This document shows, piece after piece, positions 16,487 to 19,979 of a stretch of 64,000 nucleotides of DNA. The stretch spans positions 248,001 to 312,000 of the forward strand of contig NZ_AUEP01000004.1 of the NCBI RefSeq assembly GCF_000426045.1. The letters run 5' to 3'. This DNA is from Marmoricola sp. URHB0036 (GTDB lineage: Bacteria; Actinomycetota; Actinomycetes; Propionibacteriales; Nocardioidaceae). Made by a program: the position numbers and the translations under genes. The notes beneath the pieces were generated by a model that searched no databases, had not been told where the DNA came from, and was given only the letters and a program-made list of their open reading frames with translations. Each line of letters begins with the position of its first letter. Positions within the stretch are counted from its first letter, which is position 1.

Positions 16487-16834
16487 ATGAGCACTCCTGG
16501 AGAGACGGGCAGCGAGCGCGAGGAGCAGCTGAGGCGTACCCGTTCGGTACGCCGCGGCGTCGTCGCCGCAGGCGCCACCGGAGCCCTCGGGGTCGCGATC
16601 GCCATCGGGGCGACCATCCATGGCGCCGGCTCAACGAACTCGACGACGCCCAGCACAGGCACCACGGAGGACCAGTCGCGCCCGCAGCTCGCGACCCCCG
16701 AAGAGGACGACGACGACGGTGGCTTCCAGGCTCCCGATGACCAGCAGCTCCAGAACCAGCAGGTACCCCAGCGTGGCCAGCTCGCCGCCCCGGGTGGCAG
16801 CACCCCCGCGCAAGGCCACTCGAGCGGTTCCTGA
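16487..16834 (+). CDS. small single-pass membrane protein with Gln/Asp-rich tail
   Basis: 115 aa, not recognised. A charged N-terminus with several Arg (RRTRSVRRG) precedes one hydrophobic helix (about 24-46, Gly/Ala-rich with two GAT triplets). The outward tail of about 65 residues is low-complexity: a Ser/Thr stretch, an Asp cluster (EEDDDD) and QQLQNQQ. It should be anchored by its N-terminus with the tail outside. First gene of the redox operon, 39 bp before a similarly built protein. It could be a substrate, scaffold or partner of the ApbE/haem/NuoF-like components; nothing in it proves this. Confidence 0.6.
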   Translation: MSTPGETGSEREEQLRRTRSVRRGVVAAGATGALGVAIAIGATIHGAGSTNSTTPSTGTTEDQSRPQLATPEEDDDDGGFQAPDDQQLQNQQVPQRGQLAAPGGSTPAQGHSSGS

Positions 16835-16873
16835 CCAGCTCCACGACCGCACGACCACCACGAGAGGACCATC

Positions 16874-17149
16874 ATGGACGAGCACGACAACCAGGCCCGG
16901 CAACGCAGCCAGGCCACCCGACGCACGGGCCGCATGCGGGCATTGGCCGTCGGCGGCGCGCTGGCGACGTCGCTCGCCGCCACCGGAGCGATCATGGCCA
17001 CACCTGCCACGACGACCGACACCTCGACGGGCACCTCGTCGAGCACGTCGTCGGGCACCAGCACCTCCACGGACAGCTCGAGCAGCTCCTCCGCGCTGGC
17101 CACCTCGGGCAGCTCCGGCAGCAGCCACGCGACCACGAGCGGGTCGTGA
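16874..17149 (+). CDS. small membrane-anchored Ser/Thr-rich protein
   Basis: 91 aa, not recognised. Basic N-terminus (RRTGRMR), one hydrophobic segment (about 25-42, ALAVGGALATSLAATGAI) that may be an anchor or a cleaved signal, then about 48 residues made almost only of Ser, Thr, Gly and Ala. Its stop overlaps the apbE start (ATGA), so the pair is translationally coupled. The tail is the sort of disordered extracytoplasmic region that can be modified; ApbE enzymes attach FMN to Thr or Ser. The usual flavinylation motif D-x-x-[ST]-G-A-T was not found, so being the flavin acceptor is only a hypothesis. Confidence 0.6.
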   Translation: MDEHDNQARQRSQATRRTGRMRALAVGGALATSLAATGAIMATPATTTDTSTGTSSSTSSGTSTSTDSSSSSSALATSGSSGSSHATTSGS

Positions 17150-18078
17150 TGAGTACGCCGACCCTGGCCAGCCGCGACTGGGAGCTCTGGAGCACCTCGT
17201 GCCGCCTGGTGGTGACCGATCCGGCCGCCCTGCCCTCCGCTCGGGCGCTGGTCGACTGGCTGCTCGCCGAGATCGAGAGGGCCTGCAGCCGGTTCCGCCC
17301 CGACAGCGAGCTGATGACCCTCGCGCGCAACCACGAAGGTGGCGCCGAGCTGAGTCCGCTGCTGGCCGACCTGATGGCCGATGCGCTCGAGGCAGCCCGC
17401 GAGACCGACGGCGCCGTCGACCCCACCCTGGGCTCGGTGCTCGTCGGACTGGGCTACGACACCGACCTCGAGGAGGTACGCCGCCGCGAGTCCACGAAGG
17501 AGCGACCCCGGGTCACGGTCGTACGCCGCGCCGCCGGCTGGCGCACCCTCACCCTCGAGGGCCCTCACCTCCAGCTGCCGCCCGGGCTGCAGCTCGACCT
17601 GGGCGCGACTGCCAAGGCCGGTGCCGCTGACCGGTGCGCCCGGCTGGTGGCGTCCTGTCTCGAGACCGGTGTCCTGGTCAGCCTCGGCGGTGACATCGCC
17701 ACGGCCGGTCCCGCTCCGGAGGGTGGGTGGCAGGTGCTCGTGCAGGACCTGCCCAGCGACGTACCCCAGCAGATCACGCTCGCCGCCGGGGCAGCCGTCG
17801 CGACGTCGAGCAGCGCCCGGCGTACCTGGACCCAGGCCGGCCGCCCACGCCACCACCTCGTCGACCCGCGCACCGGGTTGCCGGCCACCGGTCCCTGGCG
17901 CAGCATCACCGTGGTCGCCCCGACGGCGCTGAAGGCGAACACGGCGACGACGGCCGCCATGGTGAAGGGCCGCGACGCCCTGGCCTGGCTGCGCGGCACC
18001 GGGCTGCCGGCCCGACTGGTGCCCCAGCACGGCGGGCTGGTCACCCTGGGTGGCTGGCCTCGGGAGGCGGCGGCATGA
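17146..18078 (+). CDS. apbE: FAD:protein FMN transferase
   Basis: 310 aa. ApbE enzymes transfer FMN from FAD to a Thr/Ser of target proteins by a phosphoester bond, normally outside the cytoplasm. Family features: RFRPDSELMTL at 48-58, DGAVDPTLG near 88, DLGATAKAGAAD at 150-161, SLGGDIATAG at 178-187, HHLVDPRTG near 237 and a C-terminal A-rich ATTAAMVKG helix. No signal peptide or lipobox is visible, unusual for a periplasmic ApbE, so it may act in the cytoplasm or be exported another way. It overlaps both neighbours by ATGA. No classic FMN-binding (RnfG/NqrC-like) target gene is present in the operon. Confidence 0.92.
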   Translation: MMSTPTLASRDWELWSTSCRLVVTDPAALPSARALVDWLLAEIERACSRFRPDSELMTLARNHEGGAELSPLLADLMADALEAARETDGAVDPTLGSVLVGLGYDTDLEEVRRRESTKERPRVTVVRRAAGWRTLTLEGPHLQLPPGLQLDLGATAKAGAADRCARLVASCLETGVLVSLGGDIATAGPAPEGGWQVLVQDLPSDVPQQITLAAGAAVATSSSARRTWTQAGRPRHHLVDPRTGLPATGPWRSITVVAPTALKANTATTAAMVKGRDALAWLRGTGLPARLVPQHGGLVTLGGWPREAAA

Positions 18079-18638
18079 ACGAGGCACTGTGGGCCCTCGG
18101 GCGCGGGACAGGGGTGGTCGCGCTGGTCGTGTTCACGCTGAGCATCGTCCTGGGCATCCTCAGCCGTTCGGGACGCCCGGTCGCGGGTCTGGGCCGGTTC
18201 GGCCTCAACGAGGTGCACCGCACGGCCGCGTTGACCGGCGTCGGCCTGATCGCCGTGCACGTCGGATCCCTGTTCCTCGACCCCTACGCCCAGCTCCACC
18301 TCGTCGATGCGGTGGTGCCGTTCCTCGGCAGCTTCCGGCCGCTGTGGCAGGGCCTGGGCACGCTCGCGGTCGACCTGCTCGCCGTGGTCACCGTCGTCAG
18401 CCTGCTGCGCCGCTGGGTCGGCCCCCGCATCTTCAGGGCCGTGCACTGGCTCACCTACGCGCTCTGGCCGGTGGCCATGCTGCACGCGCTCGGCAACGGC
18501 ACCGACGCCTGGTCACTCTGGATGGACACGGTCGCCGTGCTCTGCACCGGCGCGGTCGCGGCCGCCGTGACCTGGCGCCTGCTCCCGTCGTACGCCGAAC
18601 GCGGCCGCTCACGCATCGCGAGGGTGGTGACTCGATGA
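18075..18638 (+). CDS. ferric-reductase-like transmembrane haem protein
   Basis: 187 aa with about five hydrophobic helices. Two helices carry histidine pairs: His48/His62 (HRTAALTGVGLIAVH) and His124/His137 (HWLTYALWPVAMLH). Spacings of 14 and 13 are those of bis-haem b binding in ferric reductase, YedZ/MsrQ and NADPH-oxidase membrane domains. It should pass electrons across the membrane. No FAD/NADH domain is attached; the flavoprotein is likely supplied by the NuoF-like product encoded next, which overlaps by ATGA. The partner on the outer side may be a flavinylated or iron substrate. Confidence 0.85.
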   Translation: MNEALWALGRGTGVVALVVFTLSIVLGILSRSGRPVAGLGRFGLNEVHRTAALTGVGLIAVHVGSLFLDPYAQLHLVDAVVPFLGSFRPLWQGLGTLAVDLLAVVTVVSLLRRWVGPRIFRAVHWLTYALWPVAMLHALGNGTDAWSLWMDTVAVLCTGAVAAAVTWRLLPSYAERGRSRIARVVTR

Positions 18639-19792
18639 GCACCCTGCTGACCAGCACCGACCGGCTGCTCGGGCCGGCCCCGGAGTACCCGCTCCCCCAC
18701 CTCGAGGCCCCCGAGCTGATCCGACTGGTCGAGGAAGCCGGTCTGACCGGACGCGGTGGAGGCGGCTTCCCCACCGCCCGCAAGCTGGCGTCGGTGGCCG
18801 GGCACCTCCCCGTCGTCGTCGGCAACGCGATGGAGGGCGAGCCGCTCAGCGCCAAGGACGCACTCCTGCTCGCCCGATCCCCCGGTCTCGTCGTCGACGG
18901 CCTGTCCCTCGTCGGTGCGGCCCTCGGCGCGAAGCGGCTCGTGCTCGCCCTCGGACCACGGATCCCCGCCGAGCCGGTGCAGCTCGCGGCCCGGGGCACG
19001 CGGGTCGAGGTGCGGCTGCTGCCCGGTGGGTTCGTGGCCGGGCAGGAGTCCGCACTGGTCAACCTGCTGGACGGCCGCCCCGGCGTGCCCTCCGACCCGC
19101 GGGTGCCGGTCTTCCACCGGGGCGTCGACGGGCGACCGACCCTGGTGCTGAACGCCGAGACGCTCGCCCAGCTGGCCCTGATCGCCCGCAACGGCGCCGC
19201 CTGGTTCCGGGCTGTGGGCACCCCGTCGGACCCCGGCACCTTCCTGGCCACGATCAGCGCCACCGGCCCCACGACCCTGAGGCACCCCGGTGTGCTCGAG
19301 ATCGCACGCGGCCTGCCGTTGCGCTCGGCCCTCCGGACGGCCGGCGCCGACCTCGACCGGGTCACCGGCGTCCTGGTCGGCGGCTACCACGGAGCCTGGG
19401 TGCCGCCCGACGCGGACGTGCTGCTCACCGTCGACGACCTCGCCAGGTTCCGGGCGTCGCCGGGCGCGGGCGTCCTCCTCGTCCTCGACCGGGACACCTG
19501 TCCGCTGGCGCACGCGGCGACCATCGCGCGGTACCTCGCGGGGCAGAGTGCCCGTCAGTGCGGTCCCTGTGTCAACGGGATGCCGCTGCTGGCCGACGCC
19601 CTGGCCCGGCTCGCCTCGCCGGGGACGGCGACGACCGTCACCGAGGTCGAGCGGCTCCGCGGGCTGGTCGACGGACGCGGCGCCTGCGCCCACCCGGACG
19701 GGACGGCGCGGTTCGTGGCCAGCACGATGCAGGTCTTCGCCGCCCACGTGCAGCAGCACCTGGAAGGAGCCTGCGATGCGGATCCACGTTGA
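18635..19792 (+). CDS. NuoF-like NADH/FMN flavoprotein with Fe-S binding region
   Basis: 385 aa, similar to the 51-kDa NADH-oxidising subunit of complex I but standing alone, without NuoE, NuoG or other complex I genes. The NADH/FMN site has GRGGGGFPTARK at 39-50 and GNAMEGEPLSAKDA (EGEP at 67-70). A SLBB-like stretch follows. The C-terminal Fe-S region reads ARQCGPCVNG, with Cys309 and Cys312 and a later Cys351; the first Cys of the usual CxxCxxC is Ala. It should take electrons from NADH and feed the haem membrane protein and/or ferredoxin. Start and end overlap its neighbours. Confidence 0.85.
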   Translation: MSTLLTSTDRLLGPAPEYPLPHLEAPELIRLVEEAGLTGRGGGGFPTARKLASVAGHLPVVVGNAMEGEPLSAKDALLLARSPGLVVDGLSLVGAALGAKRLVLALGPRIPAEPVQLAARGTRVEVRLLPGGFVAGQESALVNLLDGRPGVPSDPRVPVFHRGVDGRPTLVLNAETLAQLALIARNGAAWFRAVGTPSDPGTFLATISATGPTTLRHPGVLEIARGLPLRSALRTAGADLDRVTGVLVGGYHGAWVPPDADVLLTVDDLARFRASPGAGVLLVLDRDTCPLAHAATIARYLAGQSARQCGPCVNGMPLLADALARLASPGTATTVTEVERLRGLVDGRGACAHPDGTARFVASTMQVFAAHVQQHLEGACDADPR

Positions 19793-19979
19793 CTGGACCC
19801 GGTGCGACGGCCACGGCGCCTGCGCCGAGCTGCTGCCCGAGCTGCTGACCACCGACGACTGGGGCTTCCCGCTGGTCACCGGGGACGAGCGGGACCCGCA
19901 GGTGACCGTCTCGCTCGCGGGGCACGCCCGCCGGGCGGTGAAGGCCTGCCCGTTGCAGGCGCTGAGGCTCGTGGACTAG
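19776..19979 (+). CDS. ferredoxin, single-cluster three-cysteine type
   Basis: 67 aa. Cys10, Cys16 and Cys58, with CxxxxxC near the N-terminus and CP at the end, is the pattern of [3Fe-4S] ferredoxins such as those serving actinobacterial P450s. The second position, where a fourth Cys would sit, is filled by His/Gly (DGHGAC). The acidic surface (DDWG, GDERD) suits partner docking. The start lies inside the NuoF-like gene (17-bp overlap) after AAGGAG. No P450 is nearby, so the expected partner is the NuoF-like flavoprotein. Its stop overlaps the converging methyltransferase stop (CTAG). Confidence 0.88.
   Translation: MRIHVDWTRCDGHGACAELLPELLTTDDWGFPLVTGDERDPQVTVSLAGHARRAVKACPLQALRLVD

Follow-up and report, generated by a model that had tools for sequence, protein, structure and literature searches.

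Gene content of the operon

The window analysed here is the whole 64,000-nt stretch of Marmoricola sp. URHB0036 DNA (contig NZ_AUEP01000004.1, positions 248,001 to 312,000). Six plus-strand open reading frames occupy its positions 16487-19979 and encode, in order, two small proteins (g1 and g2), an ApbE, a ferric-reductase-like membrane protein, a NuoF-like protein and a ferredoxin (Table 1). A previous reading of this DNA, made from the sequence only, had proposed six plus-strand genes, and these were borne out by the open reading frames and, for the last four, by Pfam matches. In a profile search neither g1 nor g2 matched a Pfam or NCBIfam family above cut-off, and the FMN_bind domain (PF04205) was found in neither of them. 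As the previous reading had stated, Pfam placed no FMN_bind gene within the operon; the Marmoricola genome holds exactly one, on another contig, where it adjoins a second ApbE of its own.

Table 1. Features of the operon, with positions in the window.
Feature	Coordinates	Strand	Product length (aa)	Basis
g1, small membrane-anchored protein, predicted flavin carrier, ending QGHSSGS before the stop codon	16487..16834	+	115	ORF; no Pfam/NCBIfam family above cut-off
g1 seven-residue C-terminal tail QGHSSGS; predicted FMN acceptor, the last Ser	16811..16831	+		fits tail consensus
g2, small membrane-anchored protein, predicted flavin carrier, ending HATTSGS before the stop codon	16874..17149	+	91	ORF; tail kept in ~115/119 homologous operons
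g2 seven-residue C-terminal tail HATTSGS; predicted FMN acceptor, the last Ser	17126..17146	+		consensus, codon diversity, linker control
ApbE FMN transferase, no signal peptide	17149..18078	+	309	PF02424; PDB matches; model with top folds all ApbE
MsrQ/ferric-reductase-like membrane protein, four invariant His, two putative haems b	18075..18638	+	187	PF01794; conservation
NuoF-like NADH/FMN/Fe-S protein	18635..19792	+	385	PF01512 and PF10589; conserved residues
Small ferredoxin, three invariant Cys	19776..19979	+	67	PF13459; C10, C16, C58 conserved

A gap of 39 bp separates g1 from g2. From g2 onward every junction had been described as an overlap, three by ATGA and the last by 17 bp; the ATGA overlaps of apbE with the ferric-reductase-like gene and of the latter with the nuoF-like gene stand, as does the 17-bp overlap of the nuoF-like and ferredoxin genes. 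The third ATGA does not: with the ATG start at 17149 the g2/apbE junction reads TGATG and shares 1 bp, and with a GTG start at 17146 it reads GTGATGA and shares 4 bp.

The ApbE matched PF02424 with an E value of 2.8e-50, and its structural model (pLDDT 93.9) gave Foldseek top matches that were all ApbE/Ftp/FmnB proteins, with E values to 3.9e-20; the best were the Pseudomonas stutzeri, E. coli, Treponema and Listeria enzymes. The haem membrane protein matched Ferric_reduct (PF01794, E 1.5e-7), and the four histidines noticed earlier, H48, H62, H124 and H137, proved to be 98-100% conserved in 117 homologues. The ferredoxin matched Fer4_15 (PF13459, 1.7e-15) and its C10, C16 and C58 are invariant. 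In the NuoF-like protein Complex1_51K (PF01512, 4e-26) and NADH_4Fe-4S (PF10589, 2.6e-13) were recognized; its hits to NuoF equivalog models fall below their cut-offs. The protein keeps the glycine-rich nucleotide motif and lacks the first Cys of the N3 quartet (4Fe-4S), which is replaced by Ala (SAxQCGPC) in the homologues listed. Three cysteines, C289, C351 and C380, are conserved; judging by their conservation, C289 and C380 might substitute for the missing N3 Cys. The full CxxCxxC...C N3 cluster of a complex I NuoF is absent and no Nuo genes lie in the operon, in agreement with the earlier description of this protein as lacking complex I partners.

Many Actinomycetes have their genes in the order apbE, haem protein, NuoF-like protein, ferredoxin, and throughout this class the small proteins were found with apbE or with the haem/NuoF pair. 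They do not always accompany ApbE, as in some mycobacterial loci apbE and the ferredoxin gene are split off, without tail, haem or NuoF genes. In five of five examined mycobacterial genomes with such a split, a tail protein lies immediately upstream of the haem/NuoF pair (ending SPHVTVSRGS twice, SPPHTTSKGS, SPHVTISRGS and TPQHTRARGS, each followed by the stop codon), which indicates that the tail protein goes along with the membrane redox pair. In the flanks of loci L035-L073, where 81 neighbouring genes were scanned, we noted eight OmpR-type response regulators and seven histidine kinases; these neighbours were mainly regulators and included no clear outside electron acceptor. Neither type of regulator was seen beside the window operon. 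Two of the records compared, titled Bifidobacterium breve (MAG) (L042) and Sporosarcina (L061), hold loci that look mycobacterial and Arthrobacter-like, possibly through contamination or mislabelling.

A shared tail at the end of the small proteins

The key feature of the operon, absent from the sequence-only reading, is a C-terminal tail shared by the small proteins. Across about 120 compared homologous operons these carriers consist of an N-terminal membrane segment and a hydrophilic linker rich in Ser, Thr, Gly and Pro, and nearly all end in [H/Q/D/N]-[A/G]-x-[S/T]-x-[G/A]-Ser with the stop codon directly after. Tails are written below up to that codon. The linkers are dissimilar between carriers and the rest of the protein aligns poorly, perhaps the reason for the lack of a family model. 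Two carriers in one operon, as in the window, were also found at L009 and L014.

For the count of tails no motif selection was applied; the adjacent small membrane-anchored open reading frame was taken at 119 loci with a haem or NuoF gene. The exact ending [S/T]-x-[G/A]-S-stop was present in 103 of them; by our count exact tails are spread over 25 family groups. The other 16 comprised ten loose or near-terminal variants, one frame without the motif and five loci without such a frame; a tail protein lies nearby in two of these five, and no tail was found at L152, L159 and L169. Small membrane proteins with low-complexity tails ending GGTTT or KTTTT were seen near ferric-reductase/ApbE genes at L159 and L132. 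A second group of tails ends SNAS or TNAS.

Chance endings in Ser/Gly-rich linkers were ruled out, since the same pattern occurs at only 189 of 5900 positions (3.2%) inside the linkers. A stricter heptamer ends 72 of 118 tails and is seen 3 times among the 5900 linker positions. At the linker rate, 103 of 114 would have a binomial probability of about 10^-139, a figure that is indicative only because related loci are treated in it as independent. Elsewhere in the same loci 6 of 5616 frames end in [ST].GS, and none of 71 frames in FMN_bind-type ApbE loci has the tail ending, so that the tail is not a general feature of ApbE loci. Enrichment was strongest at positions -7 (His/Gln/Asp/Asn), -6 (Ala/Gly), -4 (Ser/Thr), -2 (Gly/Ala) and -1 (Ser); that at -4, -2 and -1 was part of the tail selection, whereas -7 and -6 were not. 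A ribosome-binding-site artefact was also excluded as the cause of the Gly-Ser ending: the final Ser is encoded by TCC, TCG, TCA, AGC or AGT, and Gly-Ser is kept in 48 of 49 loci with at least 15 nt before apbE, which argues for selection on the protein.

The tail as a predicted ApbE site

The minimal ApbE target consists of seven residues, D-x-x-[S/T]-G-A-[S/T], with FMN on the last one (reviewed in PMC12052999). The tail aligns with this motif position by position and stops right after the predicted acceptor residue. The match is relaxed, with the canonical Asp usually replaced by His or Gln and the canonical Gly position (-3) free. Near-canonical tails occur in the most divergent loci, VVDATTGAS (L190), ADSNTGAS (L176) and SHATSGATS (L191), and further ones are DTSTGASG (L193) and HTRSGATTTHHDS (L121). 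Because of the position-wise match and these divergent members, the tail is best read as a putative ApbE site that ends at its acceptor, and engineered flavin-tags are known to work best at protein ends (PMC12052999). An ApbE-type motif at each C-terminus strongly supports both QGHSSGS and HATTSGS proteins of the window as predicted flavin carriers; the earlier proposal that one or both small proteins carry flavin on an NADH-to-outside line thus gains support for both. Some genomes (G131, G135; loci L121, L122, L128, L129 and L200-L203) have three paralogous tail-type apbE loci, and putative acceptors several residues before the end are seen there (SSGSHHG, SGATTTHHDS).

To which side of the membrane the tail points was predicted from charge. 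The carriers have a net charge of +3.6 on the N-side vs. -1.5 on the C-side, the N-side being the more positive in 76 of 77, and this bias predicts an N-in/C-out orientation. The opposite topology, in which the tail stays in the cytosol, its flavin swings on an arm from NuoF/ferredoxin to the haem protein and no flavin is held outside, would suit an ApbE without an N-terminal signal peptide (hydropathy of the N-terminus is low and none was detected in 132 such ApbEs, that of the window included); the NuoF-like protein and the ferredoxin are also cytosolic, and all partners could be reached from inside. We regard it as unlikely, as N-in/C-out is what the positive-inside rule predicts for 76 of 77 carriers under one start model and for 84 of 103 under the second, and known MsrQ-like/ApbE clusters have their flavin outside (PMC8238504). 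Tat export of all carriers is not general, since no more than 30 of 103 have an Arg-Arg pair directly ahead of their membrane segment.

A terminal acceptor also has to be weighed against flavin on the Ser/Thr at -4 (or -5). Nearly all tails have Ser or Thr at -4, and ApbE prefers Thr as its acceptor (PMC12052999). Yet -4 is Ala in L015 (HATASGS) and L233 (HTRARGS) while -1 is still Ser, which favours -1 as the acceptor; moreover, the canonical spacing fits only with the last residue in this role and the canonical-looking members end TGAS, so that modification at -4 appears improbable.

The distribution of FMN_bind genes bears on whether the ApbE target is encoded in the operon at all. Of 30 genomes that have an apbE of this kind, 11 are devoid of FMN_bind, and in eight of these 11 that apbE is the sole ApbE gene; in the remaining 19, FMN_bind lies at a locus of its own, usually adjoining a second ApbE. 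FMN_bind is absent also from 10 of 16 additional genomes. A normal FMN-binding protein inside homologous operons, which would have spoken against the small proteins as carriers, was not seen; where FMN_bind occurs it lies in separate loci, usually with its own ApbE. The tail could instead be an unflavinylated peptide that serves in docking or assembly of the haem protein or ApbE, with the ApbE target encoded elsewhere, a view to which the relaxed motif and the Asn at the ApbE Mg site described below lend some weight. Genomes with a single ApbE in which FMN_bind, the substrate domain searched for, is absent stand against it, as do the per-position match of the motif, grading into canonical SGAT/TGAS, and the strict conservation of the residue corresponding to the acceptor, and we consider a docking role doubtful.

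The ApbE of the window has Asn264 (codon 17938-17940) in place of the canonical Mg-binding Asp. Of 131 tail-linked ApbEs, 119 have Asn at this position and 10 have Glu, the exceptions being L187 and the truncated L072, whereas Asp is present in 10 of 10 FMN_bind-linked ApbEs of the same genomes. In the tree the Asn-type ApbEs are set apart from the FMN_bind-linked and Glu-type ones with a support of 0.976. Judged from the alignment and the tree, Asn264 is a marker of an ApbE subgroup and, at the same time, the chief reason to doubt that the enzyme is active. In FmnB both Mg ions are bound by the equivalent Asp, and there Ala at Mg2+-coordinating residues, this Asp included, greatly reduces or abolishes activity (PMC8906456). 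A substrate carboxylate standing in for the missing Asp is unsupported, because L191 and L200-L203, with non-terminal acceptors, also have Asn. Having Asn or Glu at 264 in all aligned members apart from the two exceptions, at the residue that binds both metals in FmnB, the operon ApbE may no longer be an FMN transferase and may, for example, only bind or hydrolyse FAD; we find this very improbable, as Ser220, His236, Asp182 and Lys156 are still about 98-100% conserved and a lost transferase leaves the co-inheritance with an ApbE-type acceptor motif unexplained.

Proposed electron route and relation to known systems

A likely interpretation is that the locus is a flavinylation-based transmembrane electron-transfer operon in which two tiny tether proteins, and not an FMN_bind domain, carry the flavin. 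NADH would reduce the NuoF-like protein, from which electrons would pass through the ferredoxin to the four-His haem membrane protein. The co-encoded ApbE, without a signal peptide, would move FMN from FAD to the C-terminal Ser, either while the tail is still cytosolic or during export. With an apparently cytosolic ApbE and a tail predicted to end up outside, modification must precede the end of export; the C-terminus would leave the cytosol last. Overlap of the genes suggests coupled translation, which would aid modification of the tail before export. The anchored linker would then hold FMN outside, where it may take electrons from the outer haem and hand them to an outside acceptor such as Fe(III), O2, a quinone or a protein. 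This suggests a redox cofactor that hangs from the free tip of a flexible tether and not in a folded domain.

The closest known systems are the MsrQ-like flavinylation clusters of Actinobacteria (PMC8238504), which share the ApbE beside a PF01794 haem protein and the inferred NAD(P)H-to-outside flow; 31 of the 1797 clusters surveyed there include a NuoF-like protein (Meheust et al. 2021, PMC8238504). They typically have an FMN_bind protein, whereas the window operon has an ApbE without signal peptide and carriers without known domain, the tail proteins replacing the FMN_bind partner, which is typical of the MsrQ-like systems but not strictly defining. The same survey discarded ApbE and FMN-binding genes without signal peptides, and reported that ApbE genomes without any known substrate remain, some substrates being unidentified (PMC8238504). 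A second locus of the Marmoricola genome, L131 (G000:C12:178500-187500), is of the classical type and also combines a ferric-reductase-like protein with ApbE, but its membrane protein is 459 aa long and resembles the NAD-domain MsrQ-like type, its FMN_bind protein has IDSVSGAS and its ApbE has Asp at 264. Downstream of it come a membrane protein that by eye resembles DUF2231 and a two-component pair.

Flavinylation outside FMN_bind is known for FMN_red and Flavodoxin_4 substrates (mSystems 2024, PMC11334425), with FMN_red modified on an unstructured C-terminal extension; these have a folded flavin site near the attachment, whereas the tail proteins have a transmembrane anchor and no folded domain. 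DUF2271 and DUF3570, too, are non-FMN_bind ApbE substrates recognised via apbE linkage, but both are folded domains, about 135 and 420 aa long, that have [S/T]GA[S/T] internally. In the Flavin-tag (Tong et al. 2021, reviewed in PMC12052999) the terminal seven residues suffice for ApbE without a folded FMN domain; that tag is synthetic, whereas the predicted tag of the window is natural, with a relaxed motif and the very last residue as acceptor. We found no description of disordered, C-terminal-serine or tail ApbE substrates in the literature covered, which took in few subscription papers and preprints.

We are moderately inclined to the wider view that Actinobacteria have a class of redox proteins with FMN on the terminal Ser of a disordered, membrane-anchored tether and no folded flavin pocket, loaded before export by a cytosolic ApbE subfamily with an Asn metal site and serving as swinging external carriers for an NADH-driven haem protein. 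The predicted substrates escape domain searches, having no Pfam family, about 100 aa and low complexity, as well as signal-peptide filters, and they span at least 25 actinobacterial family groups. The Asn in place of the Mg-binding Asp offers a handle to recognise the ApbE subgroup. If true, the tail proteins would be minimal covalent redox carriers and a natural counterpart to the flavin-tag made by engineering.
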